Shown here: positions 310 to 15,320 of the stretch, piece by piece
Layout: each line of letters begins with the position of its first letter
How positions within the stretch are numbered: position 1 is the stretch's first letter
From: Trichocoleus sp.
Lineage (GTDB): Bacteria > Cyanobacteriota > Cyanobacteriia > Elainellales > Elainellaceae
Reading direction: 5' to 3'
NCBI GenBank assembly: GCA_036702865.1
Contig: DATNQD010000064.1
Coordinates: forward strand, 1 to 64,000
DNA length: 64,000 nt
The notes under the pieces: generated by a model
Told to the model about the DNA's origin: nothing
The model's database searches: none
The model's input: only the letters and a program-made list of their open reading frames with translations
Program-made: the position numbers and the translations under genes

Positions 310-1431
310 CTAGTCTGCAAGGCTCGCGACTTGTTCTCGATTCGATATCAAACGATTTCGTTGCTCTACTTCACCTGCTGCTAGGAGAGTACTTAAGCTC
401 TTGATTACATAATCGCTTTCCTCTAAAGCACGGCTTGCCTCTTCTTTAAAGGCAGTTTGAGCAGTTTCAAATTCCCGCATTAAAGCAGACTTATCCTTTT
501 GCTTCACCATTTCAGCTAGACGCTGGTAGGTTTCCACCAATCGATCGATCGCCTCACATCGCTCCTCGGTTGCCAGCATAATGTCCAGATAGAGCGAAGC
601 GTTTTGAGCAAATAATCGGCTCACCATGTCGATCTCTAAACGATAAGTCGGACTGGCAAACTCCAGGCTACGATTCACATCAATCGCCTCTTCAGATAAG
701 AAAACCCCCAAACTAAACACTGAAAAATGACGAATGACCTGTACCGTTGTCATCATTCGATCGTGCTCTTCGGACGTACAGTGAATGAGCTTACCCCCTT
801 CTGCTGTAATTAAATCCAGTAGCCACTGAAATGTCTCTTCTTGTCGTCCGGGGCAAACCACCACCCTTTGCGACATAAAAGAGGTGACCCCAGGACCAAA
901 CATCGGGTGTAAGCCCAACACCGGACCCTGGTGCTGTTCCAGCATCGCTTTCACAAATGGCGCTTTAATGCTTGTAACATCTGCTAATGCGGTTGTTGGA
1001 GAGAGATGAGGCGTCAGGGTTTGAATTACTTTCAGGGTTGCCTGAATTGGGACAGAAACAATGACAAGATCTGCGTCAGCCACAATTTGATCGACTCGGT
1101 GCCAATCGTCCTGTTCCAAAATATTGACTAAATGACCCGCTGCAGAGAGCCGATCGACAAAGAAACGACCGATAATGCCACGTCCACCGACAACTGTCAC
1201 TTTTTTGGCCGCCATTGCCAGAGAGCGAGAAGGACTGGTCGCCAGAGCCGCTGCACAGCTAATCAAAATATTTTTCCAAACAAACTCAGGAACACCCATC
1301 TCACTGAGGAGTGGCGACAGATGCGAGGATTGTTCATCAAGAGATAAAGAGGAAGACGCAAGAGCAGAAATCCGCTTACCGAGTAATTCAACTAAATTAC
1401 GATCGATTTGTGTAAGATTCTCTTGGGTCAT
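310..1431 (-). CDS. tyrA: Prephenate dehydrogenase with vestigial chorismate mutase domain (T-protein type TyrA)
   Basis: It should oxidatively decarboxylate prephenate to 4-hydroxyphenylpyruvate with NAD in the cytosol. Residues 1 to about 70 align with the AroQ chorismate mutase domain of enterobacterial T-protein (QIDRNLVELLGKR), and the rest with the dehydrogenase. The Rossmann motif VVGGRGIIG is at about 80-88, the catalytic His lies in SEEHDRMM at about 223, and the prephenate-binding Arg is in SPTYRLE at about 264. The mutase half is short, lacks the Arg that precedes QID and lacks the Lys/Arg/Glu active-site block, so it is probably inactive. The start chosen is ATG at 1431, preceded by GAGAG; a TTG lies four codons upstream. 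Cyanobacteria normally make tyrosine through a short arogenate dehydrogenase, so this fused form is probably specialised. It is divergent from the NRPS-like gene and may feed it. The family call is firm; the dedicated role is inference. Confidence 0.9.
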   Translation of the reverse strand: MTQENLTQIDRNLVELLGKRISALASSSLSLDEQSSHLSPLLSEMGVPEFVWKNILISCAAALATSPSRSLAMAAKKVTVVGGRGIIGRFFVDRLSAAGHLVNILEQDDWHRVDQIVADADLVIVSVPIQATLKVIQTLTPHLSPTTALADVTSIKAPFVKAMLEQHQGPVLGLHPMFGPGVTSFMSQRVVVCPGRQEETFQWLLDLITAEGGKLIHCTSEEHDRMMTTVQVIRHFSVFSLGVFLSEEAIDVNRSLEFASPTYRLEIDMVSRLFAQNASLYLDIMLATEERCEAIDRLVETYQRLAEMVKQKDKSALMREFETAQTAFKEEASRALEESDYVIKSLSTLLAAGEVEQRNRLISNREQVASLAD

Positions 1432-2119
1432 TTTTGCTCTCAAAAAATAATCTAGTTAGAAGTTCTGTGGCGCTCGTTGCCTAAGCGCAGAATACTTCTC
1501 TTCTTTTGGGAGAGCAAAGCTGCGAAGTTGCTTTTCGTGGAAAGTTCATACTCGCCGGGCAATTGTAAAACAATGCACAAGCAAATCAGGCTGAGCAACA
1601 AAAAGACTCCGTAAAAACCCAGCTTCCTTTGACTCTACTGCTTTCCTTAAGCTTTCAAGGGCAGGCTCTCTGACCTGAAGCTTCCAGAACTAATACCTAA
1701 ATTTGTTACTGTTGCTACTGTCAGCCTCTTTTTTGCTTCACACCAATTTTAAAGTAAAAGTTTATACATGTTTTTTCTATAAAATCCTCAGCCGCCGAGG
1801 AACAGAGAAATTTTTAGCAAACAAAATATAGATAGGAGATAGGAGAACTTTTGCTGAGGGCAAACTGCAATTTCCACATCAGGCTCAGTTCTGAATGGCT
1901 TCATGGCTTGCTGAAACAGTGGGTGCTCTCCTCACAAAGCCTTATGGAAAAACAGAGTAATATCCTGAACTCTTCTACACATAACTCTGCTAAGCGATGA
2001 ATATTTGGTAAACGAGCCGAAATAAAGCAGATCCAAACAGATTTGACCAAATAATCTAAAACTACGCCGATCGCTGACATTCCTGCCGAAGCCCTTACAC
2101 TCACAGCACGATTCAAACC
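1432..2119. other. Divergent promoter region between tyrA and the NRPS-like gene
   Basis: This 688-bp gap separates two divergent genes and must hold both promoters. A TATAAAAT box lies at 1778-1785 on the + strand, but I see no convincing -35 element at the right distance. Short overlapping frames in the right half have no coding character. No operator-like palindrome stands out. Confidence 0.35.
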
Positions 2120-5100
2120 ATGACCAGCAACTCACTTGTAAAACCTGAAACGTTCTCAGAAATGGTAGATTCTTCAGCAGGCCCATCTGATCAACACCGT
2201 GCTTCGGGCGAATCAGGATTGGGGCAGCTAACCGCTGTGGAAAAGGAACCTTCCATTCTGCAACTCCCCTACGATTTTCCAAAAACACCGACTACACCTT
2301 ATCAACCGAGCTATTACCCGTTTTCATTATCAAACGGCTGTCTCGAATCCCTCACTGCTGAAACGCTTGCCGCTCGCCTTGAAACACAATCTTTATTATT
2401 AGCTGCTCTTACTGCTCTTTTCTATCGTTATACGCAACAAGAAACGATCGCACTAGGGCTAACGCTGGCTCACGTAAACGGCAGCACAGACAGAACAGAA
2501 ATTTGTAGCTCAATTTATAGCGAGTTAAAAGCAAGAGCATTAGCGAGTCATATTTCGGCTGGTTTGGAGCAAACGATCGCAGCACCCCAAGTCGCTACCT
2601 CAGCCAATCATCAGGTACTTGTCACATTCCTTGCAGAGGCGAGTTCTGCGGCGGCAGCAAAACAGTGGATGACAGAGGTGCAGCAACGACAGGCAAATAA
2701 CAGCCTTGATCTGCACTGTGTTCTGTTTCAGGATCAGGAAATTGCTGGAGTTGTAGAGTATAACGCAAACCTGTTTAAGTCAGAAACGATCGCCCGTTTT
2801 GTCGGTCATTTTCAAACACTGGTTGCAGGGATTCTGAGTGAGCCGGATCAGTCGATTGCTCAGCTACCGCTGTTGACTGATGCAGAAGAGCATCAATTGC
2901 TGGTGGAGTGGAACAGCGCTTCAGTTTCCTATCCTCAGATTCCGGTTTATCAACATATTGAAACTCATGCAGCACAGCGTCCTGAGTCGATCGCTCTAAG
3001 ATGTCAAGATCAACAGCTTTCATATGCTGACCTGAATCAGCGGGCAAACCAACTCGCTCATTATTTAACCAGCCTGGGAGTTGTGGCAGGCGATCGAGTT
3101 GCTGTTTGTGTCCAGCCCTGTTTAGAAATTGGGGTTGCTTTACTCGGCATCTTTAAAGCAGGCGGTGTTTATGTACCGCTTGATCCAAGCCATCCTCACG
3201 AACGCCTCACTGCCATTCTGGAAGATACGCAAGCCAAGGTGCTGCTGACTCAAGCTGCTCTCCTTCAGAACCTTCCAACCGTGCAGCACATGCTCTGTCT
3301 CGATACCGACTGGGCAACCGTGCAGCCTTTTCCATCTCACAATCCAGAAAATTCACTGGACTTGGATCAATCTGCTTACATCATCTATACCTCTGGTACA
3401 ACTGGCAAACCAAAGGGAGTTGTCGCCAGCCATCGGAATCTGGTGAACTATATTCTTGCAACGGGAGATCGGTTCGGCTTCAATTCTGAGGATGTGATGC
3501 CATCGGTTGCTCGGTATACCTTCAGTATTGCGATGTTCGAGCTACTGTCACCGCTAGTTGCGGGTGGAACACTCGTTTTACTATCACGAGAGCAGGTTTT
3601 AGACTTCGATCGCATGGCGAAAACGCTGGAGCAATTGACCATGCTGCACACGGTTCCAAGCCTGATGCAAAAACTTGTAAGTTATATCCAGGACAGAAAG
3701 ATTGATCTACAAAAATATCAAGGTATCAAACATATTTTTACAGGTGGTGATATTGTCGCGCCTGACTTACTAGAAACTTTAAAGGCAGTCTTTCAGAATG
3801 CGAATGTTTATGTCCTCTATGGCTGTAGTGAAGTCTCTTCGCTCTGCTGCTCCTACCCGGTTCCTCGAGAGCAGACGGTGACTCAGAGCCGAGTCGGTCG
3901 AGCCTTTAACAATGTCCAAACTCGCTTGTACGATCCTGACCAAAACCTCGTGCCGATCGGCGTTCCAGGTGAGATTTATGTGAGTGGGGCAGGAGTGACT
4001 CAGGGCTATCTCAACCGGGAAGACCTGACTCAAGAAAAGTTTGTGACGATCGACGGGCAGCGCTTTTACCGTACAGGTGATTTAGGACGGTTGCGCGATG
4101 GGGGTCAGATTGAATTTTTGGGTCGTGCCGATTTCCAGGTGAAGCTGCGCGGCATCCGCATTGAATTAGGCGAGATTGAGTCTACACTGCGTCAAGCTCC
4201 TGGAGTGCGGGAGGGTGTGGTGATGGCTTGCGAGTTGGGTGGCGAGAAAAATCTGGTTGCTTATGTTGTGCTCGACCAGACACAAAAACCTCAGGTTGAG
4301 GAGATCCGCAGCTTCCTACAGGTCAGGCTCCCCGACTATATGGTTCCTGCTGCTTTTGTTGTGTTAGACATTATGCCGCTCAACCCGAACCAAAAGGTCG
4401 ATCGCCGCGCCCTGCCTCAACCGACAGTCGAGAACTTAGTGGGTTTTGGCAATCATGTTGCATCCCGGAATGAGGTAGAGCAGACATTGGTTGAAATCTG
4501 GCAGCGCATTTTGGGGATTGCGCCGATCGGCATTCAAAACAATTTCTTTGATCTGGGTGGCACTTCTCTATCCGCTGTTCAAATGCTGAGTGAGATTGAA
4601 AAGCAGTACGGCAAAAATTTACCCATCACGACGCTGCTTCAGGCAAACACAATCGAAACGCTTGCGGAAGTTTTGCAAAGGAGCGGTTCTGAGGCGATCG
4701 TTGAAGATGTGATCACCTTGCAAAAGGGTGGTAATAAGCCGCCGCTCTTCTGTATCTATGGCATTCTGCTTTATCGGGAGCTAGTTGATAACCTTGATCC
4801 AGAACAGCCTGTCTATGGAGTTTATCTTCAAGAAGAGGTTGATTTGATCAAAACAGGCCAACTCGACCAACTCAACTCCATTTTCAAAGATACGCCTACG
4901 GTTGCGGCTCGCTATCTGGAAGCTATCCGTAAACACCAACCTCAGGGACCCTACTATTTGGCAGGCGAATCTTTCGGCGGCGTCGTTGCCTATGAAATGG
5001 CACAACAGTTGCGATCGATTGGTGAAGAGGTCGCTTTGGTGGCGCTGTTTGATTCAATGGCTCCAAATTGCCGCATCGAAATTCCACGGCTGGAGCGACT

Positions 5101-5518
5101 CAAACTGCACATGCAGCTTTTTGCCAAAGAAGGGTTTGCTTATATGGCAAGGAAAATGGAGCCTCAGATTAAGCAGATCCGACGCAATTTAGAAATAAGC
5201 CTGCATCAGGTCTATCGAAAACTGAATCCAAATGCGGCGGCCCTGCCTGAAACCATCGAGGAAGCGATTCAAGAGGACATTCGTCAGTCAGTGCGGGCAC
5301 AAGCCAGCGAAGCCTATTTCCCCCAACCCTATTCAGGAAAGGTGCTGCTTTTCCGCGCCATGGAGAAAGAGGTCTTCGATGACTACGATCGCGATCTTGG
5401 CTGGAATAAAGTAGCCCAAGATCTAGAAATTATTGATGTTCCAGGCGACCACATTGGAATTCTCAAAGAGCCAAACGTACAAGTTATGGCAAGCAAATTG
5501 CAAACGTATCTGAAATAA
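2120..5518 (+). CDS. NRPS-like synthetase (partial C)-A-T-TE, probably activating an alpha-keto acid
   Basis: The 1132-residue protein starts with the C-terminal half of a condensation domain (about 40-270, no HHxxxDG). An adenylation domain follows at about 275-770 (YIIYTSGTTGKPKG; YRTGDLGR; NQKVDRRAL). The carrier domain at about 785-850 has its phosphopantetheine Ser at 816 (LGGTSL). A thioesterase at about 870-1132 has nucleophile Ser951 (GESFGG) and His1111. In the adenylation pocket the motif reads FSIAMFE, so Ser469 stands where Asp235 binds the amino group of amino-acid substrates; the A5 motif is YGCSE instead of YGPTE. An A-T-TE layout without this Asp is known for aryl-pyruvate synthetases (TdiA, atromentin and ralfuranone enzymes), which dimerise keto acids into quinones or furanones. 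The neighbouring tyrA would supply 4-hydroxyphenylpyruvate. Domains are certain; substrate and product are inferred. No good ribosome-binding site precedes the ATG. Confidence 0.88.
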   Translation: MTSNSLVKPETFSEMVDSSAGPSDQHRASGESGLGQLTAVEKEPSILQLPYDFPKTPTTPYQPSYYPFSLSNGCLESLTAETLAARLETQSLLLAALTALFYRYTQQETIALGLTLAHVNGSTDRTEICSSIYSELKARALASHISAGLEQTIAAPQVATSANHQVLVTFLAEASSAAAAKQWMTEVQQRQANNSLDLHCVLFQDQEIAGVVEYNANLFKSETIARFVGHFQTLVAGILSEPDQSIAQLPLLTDAEEHQLLVEWNSASVSYPQIPVYQHIETHAAQRPESIALRCQDQQLSYADLNQRANQLAHYLTSLGVVAGDRVAVCVQPCLEIGVALLGIFKAGGVYVPLDPSHPHERLTAILEDTQAKVLLTQAALLQNLPTVQHMLCLDTDWATVQPFPSHNPENSLDLDQSAYIIYTSGTTGKPKGVVASHRNLVNYILATGDRFGFNSEDVMPSVARYTFSIAMFELLSPLVAGGTLVLLSREQVLDFDRMAKTLEQLTMLHTVPSLMQKLVSYIQDRKIDLQKYQGIKHIFTGGDIVAPDLLETLKAVFQNANVYVLYGCSEVSSLCCSYPVPREQTVTQSRVGRAFNNVQTRLYDPDQNLVPIGVPGEIYVSGAGVTQGYLNREDLTQEKFVTIDGQRFYRTGDLGRLRDGGQIEFLGRADFQVKLRGIRIELGEIESTLRQAPGVREGVVMACELGGEKNLVAYVVLDQTQKPQVEEIRSFLQVRLPDYMVPAAFVVLDIMPLNPNQKVDRRALPQPTVENLVGFGNHVASRNEVEQTLVEIWQRILGIAPIGIQNNFFDLGGTSLSAVQMLSEIEKQYGKNLPITTLLQANTIETLAEVLQRSGSEAIVEDVITLQKGGNKPPLFCIYGILLYRELVDNLDPEQPVYGVYLQEEVDLIKTGQLDQLNSIFKDTPTVAARYLEAIRKHQPQGPYYLAGESFGGVVAYEMAQQLRSIGEEVALVALFDSMAPNCRIEIPRLERLKLHMQLFAKEGFAYMARKMEPQIKQIRRNLEISLHQVYRKLNPNAAALPETIEEAIQEDIRQSVRAQASEAYFPQPYSGKVLLFRAMEKEVFDDYDRDLGWNKVAQDLEIIDVPGDHIGILKEPNVQVMASKLQTYLK

Positions 5519-5570
5519 GATGCTGGTAGGGGTCAGGTAATCGGGAGTAGGGGACAGTGAATCCCATCAA

Positions 5571-5600
5571 GACTTTGAGAAACTTTGAGAAATTCTGAGA
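5571..5600. repeat. Three tandem 10-bp repeats
   Basis: Units gactttgaga, aactttgaga and aattctgaga sit in the 114-bp gap between the convergent NRPS-like and MFS genes. The third copy is degenerate. No function is evident. Confidence 0.6.
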
Positions 5601-5632
5601 ATCACTGATCTCGATTTCCTGCTCCTGTCTCC

Positions 5633-7066
5633 CTATTGCTTTTGCATCCGCCAGAGTAGAGCAATAATCAGCGTAGCGACAAATAGCACCAAAGCAGCGA
5701 GACGAAACGTTCCTTGAACGCCGATAACTAGCGCAGCAGCAGGTGCATTGGTCACACTGGTTGCCTGACTATGAGCCAACGCCAGAAAGGAAAAAAACGA
5801 AGCCAGCAGAGGTACACCAGACGTTTGCCCCAAGGTGCGGGAGAGCGACAACAATCCGGCGGCAATGCCTAAGCGATCGGCTGAAACTGCTCCTAAAATG
5901 GCGCTGTTGTTGGGTGACTGAAACATTCCTAGACCAACTCCAAAGGGAGCAACGCGCAGAATGTAGCCTAGATCAGTTAGCTGAGCGCTAAACGTGCTAA
6001 TACTCAAACAGCCGATAACCATCAGCATTAAGCCGATTAAGCTAATGATGCGGCTCCCAAAGCGATCGGATAAGCTGCCCGAAACTGGTGCGACAATGCC
6101 TCCTAACACCGGGGAAACTGCCAACAATAAACCAACATGCTGGGTTGGATAGTGCAGAACAAGCTCTAGAAAAAACGGCAGAATAAAAATGCTGCCAGCG
6201 ATCACAATAAAGACCAAAACTCCAGCAGCCAGGCTCAAACTAAATTGAAGATTTTCAAACAAGTTTAGATCCAGCATTGGCTGTTGCAGATGGCGCTCAA
6301 TCCAGATAAATAAAAGCAAGCCCAGAACGGCAGCCCCTAACAGTCCCAATGTGCCCGGATGATTAAAACCGTGATCTTGTCCGTAGGTCATGCCAAATGC
6401 AAAGGCAACCAATGTGCAAGTCATCACGATTGCCCCCCACCAGTCAAACTGCTGCCTTGTCTGAACTGAGCGATGATTGGGGATGTTTCGCATCACAATG
6501 AAGCTAGCAAAGATGCCAATCGGCACGTTGACGAGAAAGATGCTGCGCCATCCAGAAATCGCAATCAAAAGTCCGCCTACCGTGGGGCCTAGCGCAATGC
6601 CGAGGGAAACGGTTGCTCCAATGATGCCCAAAGCTCTTCCCCGCTCTGAGTTGGGAAAAATTTCGGTAACGATCGCCGCGCCCAAGGCAGAAATCATCAG
6701 TGCGCCCAAACCCTGAAGTGTCCGAAAGCCGATCAGCCATCCGACTCCCGGTGCAAGCCCACAGAGCAAAGAGCTAATCGTGAAGAGAACTAACCCGCCC
6801 AGGTAGAGCATTTTTTTGCCAAACATATCCCCTAAACGAGCCGCCCCTAAGACGAGCGTTGTGATGACCAGGAGATAGCTCAAAACGACCCATTGAATTG
6901 TGGCAAAGCTCGTATGAAAAACCTGAACGAGCGTCGGTAGCGCAATATTGACGATACTGGTGTCAAGCGTAAACATCAAAACCCCTAAACTGACTCCTAA
7001 CATAGCGAGCCACTTGGCAGTGTTTGATAAAGGCTGCGGTTCCAGGGAGGGAGAATGGTGATTCAT
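5633..7066 (-). CDS. MFS drug/metabolite exporter, DHA2 (EmrB/QacA) family
   Basis: A proton-driven inner-membrane exporter with about 14 hydrophobic segments over its 477 residues, the usual DHA2 size. The first helix pair carries FTLDTSIVNIALPTLVQVF, typical of EmrB/QacA proteins. Motif A follows in the helix 2-3 loop (LGDMFGKKMLYLGG). The antiporter motif C is in helix 5 (LGPTVGGLL). I start at ATG 7066 (MNHHSP), because the 21 residues upstream in frame are polar and unlike the family. The gene converges on the NRPS-like gene, so it could export that enzyme's product. It has no TetR- or MarR-type regulator beside it. The substrate cannot be told from sequence. Confidence 0.88.
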   Translation of the reverse strand: MNHHSPSLEPQPLSNTAKWLAMLGVSLGVLMFTLDTSIVNIALPTLVQVFHTSFATIQWVVLSYLLVITTLVLGAARLGDMFGKKMLYLGGLVLFTISSLLCGLAPGVGWLIGFRTLQGLGALMISALGAAIVTEIFPNSERGRALGIIGATVSLGIALGPTVGGLLIAISGWRSIFLVNVPIGIFASFIVMRNIPNHRSVQTRQQFDWWGAIVMTCTLVAFAFGMTYGQDHGFNHPGTLGLLGAAVLGLLLFIWIERHLQQPMLDLNLFENLQFSLSLAAGVLVFIVIAGSIFILPFFLELVLHYPTQHVGLLLAVSPVLGGIVAPVSGSLSDRFGSRIISLIGLMLMVIGCLSISTFSAQLTDLGYILRVAPFGVGLGMFQSPNNSAILGAVSADRLGIAAGLLSLSRTLGQTSGVPLLASFFSFLALAHSQATSVTNAPAAALVIGVQGTFRLAALVLFVATLIIALLWRMQKQ

Positions 7067-7168
7067 ATCATCATCTTTTAGACACAAAATAAAATGCCTA
7101 CAGCCCGATCGCAGATCAGGTGCAGGCAAGCCATAAATCGTTTAGAAAATAAAAAACTGACGCTTAGT

Positions 7169-7537: not shown

Positions 7538-8821
7538 CTACGCTCTAGCTTCGGCAATCCGCTTCTGAAAGTCCTCTACCAAAGTGCATAGGTCTGTCTG
7601 CGAGATCGATTCTTGTTGCCCCGATGCCAGCCACTTGAGTTGTACCGTTTGATTCTCGGCTTCTGCATCTCCCAAGATGAGACAAGCAACCGCCCCACTG
7701 CGATCGGCACGCTTCAACTGTTTCCCAAAAGCACTGCCGCTTAAGTCTAGTTCAACTGCAAAGCCTTGGTGTCGTAGCATTTGAGCCAGTTTTAGGGCTG
7801 CTGGTTCTGCCCGATCGCCCCGCGAAACGAGGTAAAAATCGAGCAAATTAGCTGGAGCCGCAGTTTGTTGTTTCAGGAGAATGATCAGGCGTTCCAGTCC
7901 GATCGCCCAACCAACCGCCGAAGTTGCAGGTCCTCCCAGTTCGCGCACCAGCCCGTCATATCGGCCGCCGCCACAGACTGTATTTTGTGCCCCCAAGCCA
8001 CCATCCGAAATGATTTCAAATGCAGTATGCGTGTAGTAGTCCAAGCCGCGCACCAGGCAATGATTCAGCCGATAGGAAATGCCTAAATCGGTTAGCTGTT
8101 GCTGTACCTGATCAAATCGCTGCCGTGACTCCGGCTCTAGCGCCTCCCAAATGTTAGGGGCTTCCTGGACGATCTGCTTGGTTTTGGCATCCTTGCTGTC
8201 AAGAATTCGCAGCGGATTTCGCTCTAATCGATTTTGCGAGTCAGCATCCAAATCTGCTTTGTAGGGCGTGAGATAGTCTACCAAGGCTTGCCGATAGCGT
8301 TGTCGGTCTTCCGGGTTGCCCACCGAGTTGAGATCGAGCCGCAGTTGATCCAGCCCCAAGGTCTTGAGAATATCGATCGCCAGCGCAATCACCTCAACAT
8401 CTGCACGCGGATCAGGGCTGCCCAATGCCTCCAGTCCCAACTGATGAAACTGTCGCTGTCGCCCTTCCTGGGGTTGCTCATAGCGAAACATCGGTCCCAA
8501 ATACCAGAGCCGTTGTGTATCTCCCTGAGCATAGAGACTGCGCTGAATGAAGGCTCTCACCACGCCTGCGGTTCCTTCTGGACGAAGCGTAATCGATCGA
8601 TCGCCCTTATCGACAAAGGTGTACATCTCTTTGCCAACAACGTCTGTTGCTTCTCCAATACCCCGCTCAAAGAGATCAGTTTGCTCAAAGATAGGGGTGC
8701 GAATCTCTCGATAAGCGGCTTTTTGAAGTGTGCTGCGGGCAACTGATTCAACCCATTGCCAGTAGCCTACCTCATCAGGCAGGATATCGCGGGTTCCTTT
8801 AATTGCTTGAATTGCGCTCAT
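7538..8821 (-). CDS. hisS: Histidyl-tRNA synthetase
   Basis: Charges tRNA-His with histidine in the cytosol. The 427 residues are the normal length for the bacterial class II enzyme. Motif 2 is visible around residue 115 (FRYEQPQEGRQRQFHQLG). The histidine-specific loop follows near 260 (LVRGLDYYTHTAFEI), motif 3 near 310 (SAVGWAIGLERL), and an anticodon-binding domain fills the last 100 residues. The ATG at 8821 gives the standard N-terminus (AIQAIKGTRDILPDE). It is the last gene of a leftward run after the regulator pair at 8.9-9.6 kb, separated by about 130 bp. Nothing is unusual. Confidence 0.98.
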   Translation of the reverse strand: MSAIQAIKGTRDILPDEVGYWQWVESVARSTLQKAAYREIRTPIFEQTDLFERGIGEATDVVGKEMYTFVDKGDRSITLRPEGTAGVVRAFIQRSLYAQGDTQRLWYLGPMFRYEQPQEGRQRQFHQLGLEALGSPDPRADVEVIALAIDILKTLGLDQLRLDLNSVGNPEDRQRYRQALVDYLTPYKADLDADSQNRLERNPLRILDSKDAKTKQIVQEAPNIWEALEPESRQRFDQVQQQLTDLGISYRLNHCLVRGLDYYTHTAFEIISDGGLGAQNTVCGGGRYDGLVRELGGPATSAVGWAIGLERLIILLKQQTAAPANLLDFYLVSRGDRAEPAALKLAQMLRHQGFAVELDLSGSAFGKQLKRADRSGAVACLILGDAEAENQTVQLKWLASGQQESISQTDLCTLVEDFQKRIAEARA

Positions 8822-8948
8822 GAATCGGGATCAAAATGATAGGGGTTAGGGGAGGAAATGGCTAGAGGCTGGGCTGCTCGATCAAGAAGCGAAGCTGCAC
8901 CCCAAGTAGAAGATTGTAAACGAAGCCCTTAACACCAGCACTGATTTC

Positions 8949-9248
8949 CTAACCCTTGAGATTTTCCCAGGCTCCAAACCGATCGGCGTAATAACTCAAA
9001 ATCTGCTCAACTCGCCGTTGTGAGATAGCATCTGCTGCGGAGGTATAGCGAATCCACAGCCCACCTACCTGACTCTGATAATAGTCAAACTGTTGAGCAC
9101 GTTGGGGCAATAGCCCTGCCTCAATGCCAGCAACCTGTCGGATGTGAGCCGCAACTTCTCGATAGACAGCCAGCGGGAGACGCGGACAAACAAGATTAAT
9201 CTGGGTAGATTGTCCAGCAGAAGAGAGGGTAGGTTCAGTCATGGTCAT
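8949..9248 (-). CDS. Conserved cyanobacterial protein coupled to the LuxR-type regulator
   Basis: A protein of about 99 residues with no recognised domain. The core (LPLAVYREVAAHIRQVAGIE, then a Tyr/Trp-rich stretch QFDYYQSQVGGLWIRY) reads like a compact alpha/beta protein. Two ATGs, at 9248 and 9242, overlap the end of the preceding regulator gene; the one at 9242 forms ATGACTGA with the regulator's stop, a translational-coupling arrangement. The longer frame running upstream to 9374 is only the shadow of the regulator. Co-transcription suggests a linked function, but I cannot say which. Confidence 0.7.
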   Translation of the reverse strand: MTMTEPTLSSAGQSTQINLVCPRLPLAVYREVAAHIRQVAGIEAGLLPQRAQQFDYYQSQVGGLWIRYTSAADAISQRRVEQILSYYADRFGAWENLKG

Positions 9249-9555
9249 TCGGTTCACTCGGCTGCCAATCTGTTGCCTCTGGTTTAAGGTTGTCTCTGGC
9301 GATCGGCAATGTGCAACAGTTGACTTCATCAATACACACCTTACCCCACTGCAACGCCCAACGGACGAGCGCAACGCGATTTCCGGTCGCTGTCTTGGTC
9401 AGAATATTGCTGATGTGGTTATCAACGGTGCGTTTGCTGATTTCCAGCTTTTCCGCGATTTCTTGGTTGGTCAAGCCGCCTGCCACTAGTTCAACGATTT
9501 GTAGTTCCCTTTCTGAAAGGGTTCCAGCGTTTTGGGACTCGCCACCAGTCATCAT
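9235..9555 (-). CDS. pedR: Small LuxR-type redox regulator, PedR-like
   Basis: A 106-residue protein that is almost only a LuxR/GerE helix-turn-helix: LSERELQIVELVAGGLTNQE at about 14-33, then the recognition helix ISKRTVDNHISNIL. It has no receiver domain. The tail after the domain holds three cysteines (KVCIDEVNCCTLP). This matches PedR of Synechocystis (Ssl0564), a small LuxR-type regulator whose activity follows photosynthetic electron transport through thioredoxin and cysteine redox state. Assignment to PedR rests on size, domain and cysteines, and I hold it as likely. An ATG at 9552 is an alternative start, and AGGG lies upstream. The downstream gene overlaps its 3' end. Confidence 0.75.
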   Translation of the reverse strand: MMTGGESQNAGTLSERELQIVELVAGGLTNQEIAEKLEISKRTVDNHISNILTKTATGNRVALVRWALQWGKVCIDEVNCCTLPIARDNLKPEATDWQPSEPNDHD

Positions 9556-9746
9556 TTGAATCGCCCTACTGTGTATATGTACTTATCGGTATCTCTTTCA
9601 TTGTAAGGACATATCTGCTCAATGCCGCAGTTCGTAATGGATTCAGTGACGGAGCCAGCGATCGGGACAAAAATGGCAAAACTGCCAAAAGCCAAGCCTA
9701 CGGTAGAATCTTGAGTACATTTGCACCGTAAAAGCGCTTAAAAGTA

Positions 9747-11549
9747 ATGATGAATCGATCGATGGGCTGGGTAGGGGTTGGAGTCATGATGGGGACGATT
9801 GGCATCACCAGTCCTGCAAGTGCTGAGCAACCGCTTTCCGTGGTCTATCCACCCGACAACCATGAAACCACCGCCGCTCGGATCTTTCTCATTGGGACAG
9901 CCCCACCAACGGGCGAAGTCACAGTGAATGGTCAACCGATTGAGCGCAGTGCCGCCGGACATTTTGCCCCCAGTTTTCTGCTTCAGATGGGGGAGAACAC
10001 CTTGACCCTAAAGTATGGCTCCCAAACCCTGACACTTCATGTTACCCGCACCTCAGACGCCCCTCCTGCCCCAGTGGGCGTTGCTTTTGCTACCGATTCA
10101 CTCACCCCTGCTGTCGATATTGCTCGCCTGCCCAATGAGCCAATTTGTTTTTCAGCCGTTGCGCCTCCCAGTGCCACCGTTTCTGTGCTGCTAAACCAGC
10201 AATCGATTCCCCTCCTGCCGCAGCCAGCCTCAGCGAGCTTGCCCCCCAATTCAGCCGTTCTGACGCTGCAAAACCAGCCTGTGACTGGAGGGGCGATCGC
10301 CACTTACCGGGGCTGCACCACCACAGCCACCCCAGGGCTGCTAGGGACTCCAGAATTCCGGCTCAGTTTGAACGGGCAAACCTTCAAGCAAGCAGGGACA
10401 GGCAAGGTCGAAATTCTCTCTCCAACCCAGTTGCAAGTCGTTGAAGTGACTGCCGGTTCAGGCGCAACCCGCACAGGGCCCAGTACCGACTACTCGCGCC
10501 TCACCCCTCTCCCCAAAGGAACCAGAGCCACTGTCACCGGACGCGACGGAGAATGGCTACGGCTTGATTATGGTGTTTGGATTCAAGCTTCTGAAACGCA
10601 GATTATCTCCAACGCTGCTCCCCCACAAACGCTCATTCGCAGCATCCGAGCAACTCAAACGGACGGCTGGACAGACATTCAATTTCCGCTCCAAGTGCCT
10701 GTTCCGTTTACTGTGCAGCAAGACGATCGAACCTTTACGCTCACGCTCTACAACACGACTGCCCAAACCGACACCATTCTGCTTAGTGATGACCCAATCA
10801 TCCAACGATTAGACTGGCAGCAAACTACACCAGGGCAGGTGCAATATACCTTTCACTTAAAGACCGATCAACAGTGGGGCTACAAACTCCGTTATGAAGG
10901 GACAACGCTTATCCTGTCGCTGCGCCATCCGCCCACATTGGGAACAAACAGACTTCCTCTCACGGGAATCCGCGTCATGCTCGATCCGGGTCATGGTGGT
11001 CCAGAAGATTTAGGGTCACGGGGTCCAACAGGCACTGCCGAAAAAGACGTGGCTCTCACGCTGGCGAAACTTCTGCGCGATCGACTTGAAGCCCGTGGTG
11101 CAATGGTTTCCCTGACTCGCGAAGCAGATATTGATCTCGACCTCAGACCTCGCATCGATGCGATTAACCAGGCAGAACCAACGATCGCCTTGAGCCTCCA
11201 TTACAATGCCCTCCCCGACAACGGCAATGCAGAACAAACCGCAGGAGTTGGCGCTTTCTGGTACAACCCCCAGGCACACAGTCTGGCAATGTTTTTGCAC
11301 CACTACCTCACCCAAAACCTCGATCGCCCTTCTTACGGCGTTTTCTGGAACAATCTCGCGCTTACCCGTCCCACAGTTGCCCCCACCGTCCTCCTCGAAC
11401 TGGGCTTTATGATCAACCCGACTGAATTTGAGTGGGTTACTGATCCCCGACAGCAAGAAAAATTGGCAGAAGCACTAGCGGCAGGCGTAACGGACTGGTT
11501 GCGAACTCGCACAGAGGAGGATCAAGCGATGCGAAATGAAGGAAAGTGA
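9747..11549 (+). CDS. N-acetylmuramoyl-L-alanine amidase (Amidase_3) with SH3 domain
   Basis: A periplasmic zinc amidase that cuts the bond between muramic acid and L-Ala in peptidoglycan. A signal peptide covers residues 1 to about 26, ending in ASA. Beta-rich regions follow, with a bacterial SH3-like domain around 230-285 (SGATRTGPSTDYSRLTPL) and an AMIN-like stretch around 300-395. The catalytic Amidase_3 domain occupies about 407-590. Zinc and catalytic residues are His416 (DPGHGG), His485 (SLHYN) and Glu551 (LLELGF). At 600 residues it is longer than AmiC because of the N-terminal domains, as is common in cyanobacteria. It is transcribed away from the pedR-like gene. In filamentous cyanobacteria such amidases make septal nanopores, but a role here is inference. 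Confidence 0.92.
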   Translation: MMNRSMGWVGVGVMMGTIGITSPASAEQPLSVVYPPDNHETTAARIFLIGTAPPTGEVTVNGQPIERSAAGHFAPSFLLQMGENTLTLKYGSQTLTLHVTRTSDAPPAPVGVAFATDSLTPAVDIARLPNEPICFSAVAPPSATVSVLLNQQSIPLLPQPASASLPPNSAVLTLQNQPVTGGAIATYRGCTTTATPGLLGTPEFRLSLNGQTFKQAGTGKVEILSPTQLQVVEVTAGSGATRTGPSTDYSRLTPLPKGTRATVTGRDGEWLRLDYGVWIQASETQIISNAAPPQTLIRSIRATQTDGWTDIQFPLQVPVPFTVQQDDRTFTLTLYNTTAQTDTILLSDDPIIQRLDWQQTTPGQVQYTFHLKTDQQWGYKLRYEGTTLILSLRHPPTLGTNRLPLTGIRVMLDPGHGGPEDLGSRGPTGTAEKDVALTLAKLLRDRLEARGAMVSLTREADIDLDLRPRIDAINQAEPTIALSLHYNALPDNGNAEQTAGVGAFWYNPQAHSLAMFLHHYLTQNLDRPSYGVFWNNLALTRPTVAPTVLLELGFMINPTEFEWVTDPRQQEKLAEALAAGVTDWLRTRTEEDQAMRNEGK

Positions 11550-11696
11550 TCAGAAAAAAGATCAGAACAGTGGCGCATATTGCTCAGTTCTCCATAATCG
11601 CCTATTATCCACTCCTCAAAAAGTTTACTTTTCCCGTCACTTTAGGGAATATTGACCACGTAGGTTTATCACATCCTTGAGGATCGTTGCCTAGCT

Positions 11697-11945
11697 ATGC
11701 CCAGAACGCCAAGCGAATTTTCGGTGCATCTTTTGATGGAAGGGGGACACCGTGAAGAAGTCCGCTTCCCTACAATCCAGGACTTTCAGAAATGGTACAG
11801 TGCTGAGCTTGTGCCCAAATCTGCCTCGAATGACTTTATCAACGTACCAATCAAGAACATTCAGGGTGAGTATATGGTCGTGCGCCCGTCGCGGGTAATT
11901 GCGCTGCGAGTCGAGCCGATTTTCTCTGGTAGCGTTGACTTTTAA
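11697..11945 (+). CDS. Conserved small cyanobacterial protein
   Basis: An 82-residue protein, mixed alpha/beta by eye, with a conserved look (EFSVHLLMEGGHREEVRF, then DFINVPIKNIQGEYMVVRPS). I recognise it as a type found across cyanobacteria without a known function. It has no signal peptide or membrane segment. A TTGAGGA lies about 20 nt before the ATG, too far for a good ribosome-binding site. Its stop is only 4 nt before the likely GTG start of the MltA gene, so the two are probably one transcript. Confidence 0.8.
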   Translation: MPRTPSEFSVHLLMEGGHREEVRFPTIQDFQKWYSAELVPKSASNDFINVPIKNIQGEYMVVRPSRVIALRVEPIFSGSVDF

Positions 11946-11949
11946 ATCT

Positions 11950-13134
11950 GTGCTTCGATCGCTGCTGCTGTTTTGTCTGAGTTTAGGTCTGGTTCTTGGT
12001 CTGGGAGTGTTACCCGCCCGGACAGAACAGGCTGCTTTGCCGTTGCCAACTCCACTGCAAAAAATTGAGCTTGCGACCCCAGAAGGGGCACTCGGTCTGG
12101 ATGAGCAGCTTTTTGGTCAGGGTCGAGCATCTGACCGACGGGCATTGCTGCAAGCGATCGACTATTCCCTACAATATCTGGCTTCTCCTGCTGCTGAAGC
12201 CGCTTATGCCCAATACCCGGTTCGCTCTTTTAGCCGCGATCGCGTTCGGCGAAGTCTGGTTCGCTTTCGGGAGCTGCTGCGATCGGCTCGTTCACCAGAG
12301 GCATTGCGATCAGCCGTTTGGCGCGAGTTTGATCTCTATCAGTCGATCGGGAGTGATGGGCAGGGAACGGTTAGCTTTACCGGATATTTTGAACCGATTT
12401 ATGCTGCCAGTTGGGTTCAGACTCGCGAGTTTCGCTATCCGCTGTATCGGTTGCCGCCTAACTTAGTGCAGTGGGCAAAGCCACACCCAACCCGACAACA
12501 GCTTGAGGGCAAAGATGGGCTTCAGGGATCGCAGGGACGCTTGCGCGGTTTGGAATTGGTCTGGTTGCGCGATCGGCTGCAGGCATATCTGGTGCAGGTA
12601 CAGGGATCAGCGAGGCTGCAATTGACTGATGGGACACAGATGTCGGTAGGCTATGCCGGACGAACGGAATATCCTTATGTCAGCTTGGGGCGAGAACTGG
12701 TCAATGCAGGGAAAATTCCAGCCGCAAATCTCAGTTTGCCGCTTGTCATTCAATATTTCCAGGCTCATCCTGCCGAATTAGATGAATACCTGCCCCGGAA
12801 CGATCGCTTTGTCTTTTTCAAAGAGACAACGGGCACACCCGCAACCGGAAGCTTAGGTGTTCCTGTAACCGCAGAACGATCGATTGCCACAGATAAACAT
12901 CTGATGCCGCCTGGTGCACTGGCATTGATTCAAACCGAAATTCTTCAACTTGACGCCCAGGGGCAACTCACCCCACAAAGAGCCAGTCGCTATCTGCTGG
13001 ATCAAGATACGGGAGGCGCGATTCAGGGAGCCGGACGAGTTGATATTTTTATGGGAACTGGAATCCAAGCAGGCGATCGAGCCGGACTGATCCATGCTCC
13101 AGGTCAGCTTTACTATCTGTTGCTGAAGAACTAG
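11950..13134 (+). CDS. mltA: Membrane-bound lytic murein transglycosylase A
   Basis: Cleaves the MurNAc-GlcNAc bond of murein with formation of 1,6-anhydromuramic acid, outside the inner membrane. The N-terminus is a signal peptide (LRSLLLFCLSLGLVLGLG) with no obvious lipobox. The MltA domain spans about 90-290 (GYFEPIYAAS; YPLYRLP; VQVQGSARLQL; VGYAGRTEYPYVSLG). The C-terminal 3D domain carries the Asp-rich signature DQDTGGAIQGAGRVDIFMG near 365. No ATG is available: in-frame starts are TTG 11899, TTG 11935 and GTG 11950. I chose GTG because it lies just after the upstream stop and gives a clean signal peptide; the first 17 residues are uncertain. Confidence 0.92.
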   Translation: MLRSLLLFCLSLGLVLGLGVLPARTEQAALPLPTPLQKIELATPEGALGLDEQLFGQGRASDRRALLQAIDYSLQYLASPAAEAAYAQYPVRSFSRDRVRRSLVRFRELLRSARSPEALRSAVWREFDLYQSIGSDGQGTVSFTGYFEPIYAASWVQTREFRYPLYRLPPNLVQWAKPHPTRQQLEGKDGLQGSQGRLRGLELVWLRDRLQAYLVQVQGSARLQLTDGTQMSVGYAGRTEYPYVSLGRELVNAGKIPAANLSLPLVIQYFQAHPAELDEYLPRNDRFVFFKETTGTPATGSLGVPVTAERSIATDKHLMPPGALALIQTEILQLDAQGQLTPQRASRYLLDQDTGGAIQGAGRVDIFMGTGIQAGDRAGLIHAPGQLYYLLLKN

Positions 13135-13415
13135 CCTTTGCTATGCTGATCAGGTTGTGAGGCGCGATCGGCAAAACCGCAAAATCAAAATTTGTGATTA
13201 CTCTAGTTTGTAAAGAGATAACGATCGCACTTCCAATTCATTCCTAATTTTTGCTTTCCCCGCTGTCACTGAATCCTTGCATGATAGAACCCGATCGAAG
13301 TCACGTCCTGAGCATTGCAATTCAACCGTCAATTAAACCAATCAAACCAATCCGACTGGGAAGATTGCAGACCATGCCGATCGATCGCGGCAGTCGCTTA
13401 CCTTAGTCAGACCTT

Positions 13416-15320
13416 ATGGATGCAGCAGCGTTTCAGCTTACCTTGCAGATAGTACTTGCCGTCATTGCGGGCATCGGGGCACAAGTTCTGGCAGATTTTT
13501 TGAAAGTGCCGAGCATTGTGGTTTTGCTCCTGTTTGGGATGTTGATGGGAGCAGATGGAATTGGCATATTGCATCCCAACTGGCTGGGGAATGGGCTTGA
13601 AGTCATTGTCTCTCTGTCAGTTGCCCTGATTCTGTTTGAGGGCGGGCTAAACCTGAATTTGCGCGAACTGGATAAAGTCTCTGGAAGTTTGCGAAATCTG
13701 GTGACATTCGGCGTACTGATTACCCTGCTCGGTGGCGGGATGGCGGCTCACTGGTTGGGAGAGTTTCCCTGGACGATCGCCTTTCTCTATGCCTCGCTGG
13801 TGGTGGTCACAGGTCCCACGGTCATCACTCCCTTGTTGAAGCAGGTGAAGGTCGATCGTCCGGTTGCGGCGCTATTGGAAGGCGAAGGGGTGCTGGTCGA
13901 TCCGGTGGGGGCAATTCTGGCAGTAGTCGTGCTGGACATCATTCGCAACGGGGGGGCTGATCCGCTGGCGGTTTTAAGTGGTTTGATGCTGCGCCTGGGG
14001 ATTGGTGGTGGCATTGGAGCGATCGGCGGCTGGTTGCTGGGTACTGTGCTGCGACGGGCAAATTCGCTTTCAGATGATCTGAAAAATCTGGTCGTGCTGG
14101 CTGGCGTTTGGGGCTTGTTTGGGCTGGCACAACTGATTCGCAGCGAATCGGGTCTGATGACGATGGTGGTTGCTGGAATTGTGGTTGGGGCATCTTCGCT
14201 TCCGGCGGAGCGGCTGTTGCGTCGCTTTAAAGGTCAGTTAACGATCCTGGCTGTCTCAGTTCTATTTGTGCTGCTGGCAGCAGATTTGTCGATCGCCAGT
14301 GTTTTTGCTCTGGGGTCAGGAGCACTGTTCACAGTGGCGGCACTCATGTTTATTGTGCGTCCATTGAATGTTTGGTTCTGCACCTGGAATAGCGATCTGG
14401 ACTGGCGACAAAAGCTGTTTATTTGCTGGATTGCACCCAGGGGTATTGTCTCAGCATCCGTTGCATCCCTGTTTGCCATCTTGCTAACCGAGCGGGGCAT
14501 CAACGGCGGTGACTCGATTAAAGCTCTGGTTTTCCTGACGATTCTCTCGACAGTCTTTTTGCAGGGTTTGTCTGCTGGCTGGGTGGCTCAACTGCTGGGC
14601 ATTACTTCAGTGCAGGCAACTGGAGTAGTGATTGTGGGCTGTAGTCCGTTGAGCCTGCTGATTGCACGTTTATTCCGCGATCGAAATGAGTCTGTTGTCC
14701 TGATTGATACTGACATCGACGCCTGCCAAGTTGCCAAGCAGCAGGGCTTTACAGTTTTTTCTAGCAGTGCCCTCGACACGACTGTTTTAGAAGAAGCGGG
14801 ACTCGAACGAACCGGAACATTTTTGGCGATGACCAACAACGGCGAAGTGAATCTGGTTTTAGCGCAGCGTGCCGCTGAAGAATTTAATCCACCGAGAGTT
14901 TTTGCAGTTTTTCCTGGCGATCAAGAACCCAATATTCCAACGGATATTAGCAAGGTTCAGCAGGCGTTCACGACGCAAATTTCTTTGAAAACCTGGAACC
15001 GTTACCTCGATGAGAATGCCGTCAAGCTTGGAGAAACAACCCTGCGTGAACCCGGATTTCTCTTTCAGCAAGCTCATCTCAAAGCACTGATCCGCACTGA
15101 GGAACTTGTTCCGCTTCTGATCGAGCGAGACGATCGACTCTTAGTAATCCCGGTGACTGAAGAATGGCAGTCGGGCGATCGGATTATTTATCTGCTGCAT
15201 GACCCCCGCCCCAGACTCCTGAAGCAATTGGCAGGCGCAAACAACAAGCCCCTCGTCGTTGAGAAACTGCCCCAAGTCGAAGAAATTCCCTTTACTCCCC
15301 TGCTGGAACTGCCCAACTAG
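13416..15320 (+). CDS. CPA1-type Na+/H+ antiporter with C-terminal RCK (TrkA-N) domain
   Basis: An inner-membrane cation/proton exchanger. Residues 1 to about 400 hold some 12 transmembrane segments. Ion-path signatures are LSVALILFEGGLNLNL near 70 and the acidic EGEGVLVDPVGAILAV near 155-170. From about 405 a Rossmann TrkA-N domain begins (VVIVGCSPLSLLIARLFRD), with the nucleotide-binding Asp in VVLIDTDIDAC, followed by a small TrkA-C-like part. This fusion allows nucleotide or redox control of transport. The 634 residues fit this subfamily, which is common in cyanobacteria. It is a monocistronic gene meeting the methyltransferase gene tail to tail with 3 bp between them. Ion specificity (Na+ or K+) cannot be read. 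Confidence 0.9.
   Translation: MDAAAFQLTLQIVLAVIAGIGAQVLADFLKVPSIVVLLLFGMLMGADGIGILHPNWLGNGLEVIVSLSVALILFEGGLNLNLRELDKVSGSLRNLVTFGVLITLLGGGMAAHWLGEFPWTIAFLYASLVVVTGPTVITPLLKQVKVDRPVAALLEGEGVLVDPVGAILAVVVLDIIRNGGADPLAVLSGLMLRLGIGGGIGAIGGWLLGTVLRRANSLSDDLKNLVVLAGVWGLFGLAQLIRSESGLMTMVVAGIVVGASSLPAERLLRRFKGQLTILAVSVLFVLLAADLSIASVFALGSGALFTVAALMFIVRPLNVWFCTWNSDLDWRQKLFICWIAPRGIVSASVASLFAILLTERGINGGDSIKALVFLTILSTVFLQGLSAGWVAQLLGITSVQATGVVIVGCSPLSLLIARLFRDRNESVVLIDTDIDACQVAKQQGFTVFSSSALDTTVLEEAGLERTGTFLAMTNNGEVNLVLAQRAAEEFNPPRVFAVFPGDQEPNIPTDISKVQQAFTTQISLKTWNRYLDENAVKLGETTLREPGFLFQQAHLKALIRTEELVPLLIERDDRLLVIPVTEEWQSGDRIIYLLHDPRPRLLKQLAGANNKPLVVEKLPQVEEIPFTPLLELPN

Follow-up and report, generated by a model that had tools for sequence, protein, structure and literature searches.

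A putative tyrosine-precursor pathway in cyanobacteria with a Ser235 adenylation domain and HPPD-related partners

The window analyzed here covers the opening 64 kb of contig C64 in a 5.93-Mb cyanobacterial genome. A gene for a T-protein-type prephenate dehydrogenase (TyrA) lies 309 bases from the contig end; a synthetase gene starts 676 bases past it on the opposite strand, and an MFS transporter gene comes next. Pfam and NCBIfam domain calls agree with the first-pass annotation, which had described a TyrA, a partial C-A-T-TE synthetase and a DHA2 MFS gene side by side. All three open reading frames lie where it had placed them, with position 7066 being an internal ATG of the MFS reading frame. 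The features are as follows.

310..1443, minus strand: T-protein-type prephenate dehydrogenase (TyrA), 377 aa (NCBIfam PRK11199, 2pv7 match)
2120..5518, plus strand: half-C / A / T / TE synthetase, 1132 aa (Pfam, NCBIfam)
2249..2905, plus strand: C-terminal part of a condensation domain, residues 44-262 (Pfam PF00668)
2930..4444, plus strand: adenylation domain, residues 271-775 (Pfam PF00501, tree)
3524..3526, plus strand: Ser469 at the PheA Asp235 position (alignment to 1amu)
3647..3649, plus strand: His510 at PheA position 278, invariant in the Ser235 family (alignment)
3824..3826, plus strand: Cys569 of YGCSE, replacing the Pro of YGPTE (alignment)
4472..4687, plus strand: thiolation (carrier) domain, attachment site Ser816 (Pfam PF00550, alignment)
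4715..5515, plus strand: thioesterase (TE) domain, inferred triad Ser951/Asp978/His1111 (Pfam PF00975, alignment)
5633..7129, minus strand: DHA2-family MFS transporter, 498 aa (NCBIfam TIGR00711)

The synthetase follows the A-T-TE order and ends in its TE, with an AMP-binding match of 297.6 bits alongside PP-binding and thioesterase matches (Pfam). Its condensation domain is partial: the best stretch, residues 176-261, corresponds to profile positions 370-456 of 456, and the part bearing HHxxxDG is missing. An AlphaFold model of the full-length protein (mean pLDDT 71) had termination modules (4zxh, 2vsq and EntF) as its best PDB folds; residues 464-472, including Ser469, fell below pLDDT 50, making the model usable for the fold and not for the pocket. 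TyrA scored 317.5 bits against a PRK11199 cut-off of 273, and its closest solved structure was the T-protein 2pv7 (E 9.5e-64, matching residues 80-350 and leaving the N-terminal stretch 1-79, a candidate chorismate mutase half, outside the match); a distant, ordinary TyrA is encoded elsewhere in the genome, on C71. Searching a plasmid collection returned no orthologue (best match ~37% identity), and a PADLOC search returned no match.

We read the adenylation pocket by alignment to the solved PheA sequence (1amu), which gave the code S469 I470 F473 H510 F G L S L (SIFHFGLSL). As the first-pass annotation had proposed, Asp235 is replaced by Ser469, with no Asp at that position; at the nine code positions its residues also stood, except the fourth, where PheA T278 corresponds to His510 and not Thr511. 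Ordinary domains in the same alignment yielded familiar-looking codes (DVWHFSLID, DLYNLSLIW and DILQLGLVW), indicating that the alignment behaves as expected. Noise does not account for the substitution: Ser occupies position 235 in all 27 distinct rows of one A-domain clade, and the 34 other A-domain rows have Asp. The same 27 rows all read YGCSE at the A5 motif, where 25/34 of the other rows read YGPTE.

Published keto-acid domains offer a partial comparison. In the solved domain of the cereulide synthetase StsA, Asp235 and the A5 Pro are both lost, and restoring the Pro abolishes activity (PMC11253843). The window domain resembles StsA in lacking Asp235 and in the replacement of the Pro after the Gly of A5, but StsA has Ile at position 235 and an aliphatic substrate; known keto-acid domains are aliphatic at this position (PMC11253843), where the window has Ser. 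Nor does Ser469 match the Val at the first code position that marks fungal aryl-keto-acid enzymes (PMC10316625). Since the A5 Pro is also lost in amino-acid domains (GGATE, YGATE or YGLTE, 8/34 other rows), its loss in the Ser235 family would not be decisive for keto-acid use. The Ser235 of this family is unlike the published codes consulted for comparison, and the substrate class may be a keto acid, an aryl-acetic acid or a hydroxy acid.

Genome searches covered 60 relatives plus 390 genomes of the class, and the Ser235 synthetase family was found in 25/390 sampled cyanobacterial genomes, Myxacorys almedinensis among them. In a quick maximum-likelihood tree, the 27 Ser235 A-domain rows formed one clade on a long stem (SH-aLRT 100). 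The main subtype carries the code SIFHSGICM in 23/23 distinct domains, while SIFHFGLSL is found in the window and three relatives (L054, L050 and L039), which together form a subclade (support 100) nested among members linked to 4-hydroxyphenylpyruvate dioxygenase (HPPD). Two genomes hold neighboring copies. In G003, two-module and single-module Ser235 synthetases lie side by side (L052:3359-10126 and 11101-14454), and the second module there reads DPRHCGGQL, not a glycine-like code. In G136, two Ser235 A domains stand in tandem (L110:4586-7437 and 8018-13873), with one reading frame split just before the carrier domain, possibly by a frameshift after recent duplication.

We then counted neighbors within about 10 kb of the Ser235 synthetases. 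Sixteen loci had full-length HPPD (TIGR01263 around 400 bits), 14 had T-type TyrA with the window counted, 12 a family-2 glycosyltransferase (GT2) and 4 a DAHP synthase; in two more synthetase genomes, HPPD and TyrA occur together on another contig (L202, L203). Full HPPDs number one to three per roughly 5-9 Mb genome, so their repeated adjacency to the synthetase is far beyond chance. T-type TyrA was found in 16/25 synthetase genomes versus 11/365 others (Fisher P 2e-15, uncorrected for kinship), which supports a conserved tyrA-synthetase pairing. HPPD is nonetheless the more constant partner, because six genomes have it adjacent yet lack a T-type TyrA (G171, G133, G246, G104, G276 and G136). 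The cluster HPPDs keep all or most of the DHxxxN, QH and FFExIER motifs, plus the GNF Phe. GT2 was dropped as a partner in the window genome, where the homologue lies on C71 beside apparent exopolysaccharide genes.

Several other loci surfaced in these searches. Three T-type TyrA loci that lack the synthetase (L195, L198 and L200) look scytonemin-like, and in scytonemin clusters the tyrA step stops at 4-hydroxyphenylpyruvate (HPP; PMC2726228, PMC7997468). At L196:7912-14548, T-type TyrA neighbors a 1768-aa protein whose adenylation-related sequence falls outside the Ser235 family; this pair may belong to a further pathway that uses HPP. HPPD ahead of a homogentisate-dioxygenase-like reading frame (assigned by eye), as in tyrosine catabolism, was seen at L208:6449-8761 and in the window genome at C29:28103-30418 (L092:8103-10418); the latter pair indicates that this genome also has full HPPDs unrelated to the synthetase locus. 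Weak HPPD matches also came from small VOC-fold-like proteins that have signal-like N termini and are often arranged in tandem (L205:8104-9381, L206:8334-8912, L207:7729-10705); these occur whether or not a genome carries the synthetase.

The window subclade departs from the HPPD pattern. L050, L039 and L054 have no adjacent full HPPD and encode instead, near tyrA, a protein of 221-241 aa that resembles only the catalytic, C-terminal half of HPPD. Its counterpart in the window genome lies near a contig end at C79:837-1517; the ends of C64 and C79 were compared and share no sequence overlap. This half-size gene was found in 4/390 genomes, exactly the four with the code SIFHFGLSL. Relative to HPPD (TIGR01263; 1t47), the protein lacks the N-terminal half and scores 33.7-39.4 bits, far under the family cut-off of 277, but keeps two His and a Glu: a putative 2-His-1-Glu metal site, assigned by motif only, is formed by His9, His90 and Glu146 in VDH, QH and FAEYVQR, and is invariant in all four proteins. 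A structure model built from the four sequences reached a mean pLDDT of 32 and was not used.

The pocket differs in parallel. HPPD-type A domains have 128 invariant columns, eight of which are replaced in all four window-type domains, and four of these eight fall among the nine pocket positions (hypergeometric P about 7e-4). Because the pocket is otherwise frozen, this suggests that the substrate changed together with the dioxygenase. The two changes fall on one branch, and the dioxygenase/pocket swap is a single evolutionary event in one clade, so P values from genome counts ignore relatedness.

The TE may have a different history. Between the window protein and its three subclade sisters, A domains are 70-74% identical and TEs only 34-38%, whereas the window TE is 52-58% identical to those of the two-module members L103, L106 and L101. 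The TE nucleophile is Ser951 in the window and Cys in the sisters (GLCxGG or GMCAGG), a residue also used by the lactone-forming TE of ObiF (PMC6668435). Loss of a module, or recombination, may thus have left the window protein with a starter module fused to a two-module-type TE. In the two-module proteins the condensation domain is complete, with HHxxxDG, and the second A domain reads DILQLGMVW, which resembles the glycine code.

The transporter, which the first-pass annotation had cast as the exporter of the pathway, does not share this conservation. It scored 276.2 bits against an EmrB/DHA2 cut-off of 230.2 (NCBIfam TIGR00711), and strong homologues were found in 4/31 genomes, with linkage to the synthetase confined to the window. 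In G017 and G340, transporter and synthetase lie on separate contigs (C112 and C178; C6 and C7), and G016 has a homologue and no Ser235-family synthetase. The DHA2 transporter is a neighbor and not part of the conserved set.

We consider it fairly probable that the window captures one end of a tyrosine-precursor pathway dedicated to a secondary metabolite, in which a non-amino acid derived from HPP is activated and released. The T-type TyrA, distinct from the ordinary TyrA of the genome, would convert prephenate to HPP; the half-size HPPD-like protein, through its 2-His-1-Glu site, would oxidize HPP or a later intermediate; and the Ser235 adenylation domain would activate the resulting acid, lacking an alpha-amine, and load it onto the carrier. 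The half condensation domain, without its catalytic motif, would form no peptide bond in the window enzyme, and the TE would free the acyl group as an acid, ester or lactone. Most relatives would use a full HPPD in place of the half-size enzyme, with homogentisate or HPP as the substrate, and two-module relatives would link the acyl group to a glycine-like residue. An HPP origin and a non-amino substrate, both anticipated by the first-pass annotation, are likely given the conserved neighbors and the Asp235-less pocket.

With slightly less than even confidence, we further propose that the Ser235 A domains are NRPS starter domains of a new family that accepts an HPP-derived non-amino acid, homogentisate or a relative. 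The two pocket codes of this family would switch with the dioxygenase (full HPPD with SIFHSGICM; half-size enzyme with SIFHFGLSL), giving rise to two related aromatic metabolites. The half-size HPPD-derived enzyme is apparently undescribed. Across the literature searched, mostly non-subscription, we found no described cyanobacterial cluster of such make-up, no homogentisate-activating domain and no match from nostotrebin biosynthesis, which is weak evidence of novelty for the cluster. If correct, the proposal would contribute two specificity codes for aromatic acids that lack an amino group, reveal a conserved cyanobacterial cluster for which the literature searched reports no product, and provide a small-scale natural experiment for setting an oxygenase swap against an A-domain pocket swap.

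Other readings can be set beside the closest described systems. The first-pass annotation favored a furanone or benzoquinone dimer, made by adenylating HPP and joining two units at the TE, as in the RalA, EchA, TdiA and atromentin synthetases. These enzymes and polyporic acid synthetases share with the window the A-T-TE order, the missing amino-anchoring Asp and an aryl-pyruvate supply, here from a dedicated TyrA, and the loss of the A5 Pro is keto-acid-like. Compared by published descriptions, however, the window has Ser and not Val at code position 1 (PMC10316625), and the family adds an HPPD or half-size partner and condensation sequence, a half domain in most single-module members and a full one in two-module members. 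The window TE is nearest those of two-module, peptide-forming relatives; the analogy is weakened because peptide-bond formation in those relatives appears to be fed by this same first module. As HPPD, the most constant neighbor, would also be unneeded for dimer chemistry, we regard a homodimer as improbable. The scytonemin cluster (scyA-F with tyrA, aroG, aroB and a glycosyltransferase) likewise shares the TyrA step ending at HPP and, like the Ser235 loci, holds extra shikimate-pathway genes and a glycosyltransferase, but it couples keto acids through the ThDP enzyme ScyA and has no Ser235-type synthetase.

An ordinary tyrosine- or phenylalanine-activating module that had lost Asp235 has a precedent in McyG, an amino-acid domain that has Val at this position and reportedly activates Phe (PMC11253843). 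The first-module position with no working condensation domain upstream, the family-wide Ser235/YGCSE signature and a T-type TyrA that goes no further than the keto acid all make this unlikely. Closer to our preferred pathway is the narrower possibility that the main clade uses homogentisate from the adjacent HPPD and the window subclade a different acid from the half-size enzyme. The HPPD-adjacent loci, six of them in genomes without T-type TyrA, the retained HPPD motifs and the coincidence of pocket change and enzyme swap all point this way; no known NRPS code for homogentisate is available for comparison, HPPD could merely divert HPP or act after the synthetase, and HPP itself would suit an A domain with keto-acid hallmarks, so we hold this assignment as plausible but doubtful. 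Biosynthetic clusters sometimes hold a spare copy of their target, and HPPD could accordingly be a self-resistance copy against a product that inhibits it. This is very improbable: the cluster HPPD is the only HPPD in G171, G133, G246, G159 and G061, hence no spare, and the clusters of the window's subclade contain no full HPPD.

A second synthetase type was also observed, with a formyltransferase domain before A-T-TE (L051:3542-7756; Pfam). In G017 about 8 kb separates this copy from the Ser235 synthetase, and a window-genome protein at C71:146570-151015 (L120:6570-11015) has a start that appears similar to it by eye.
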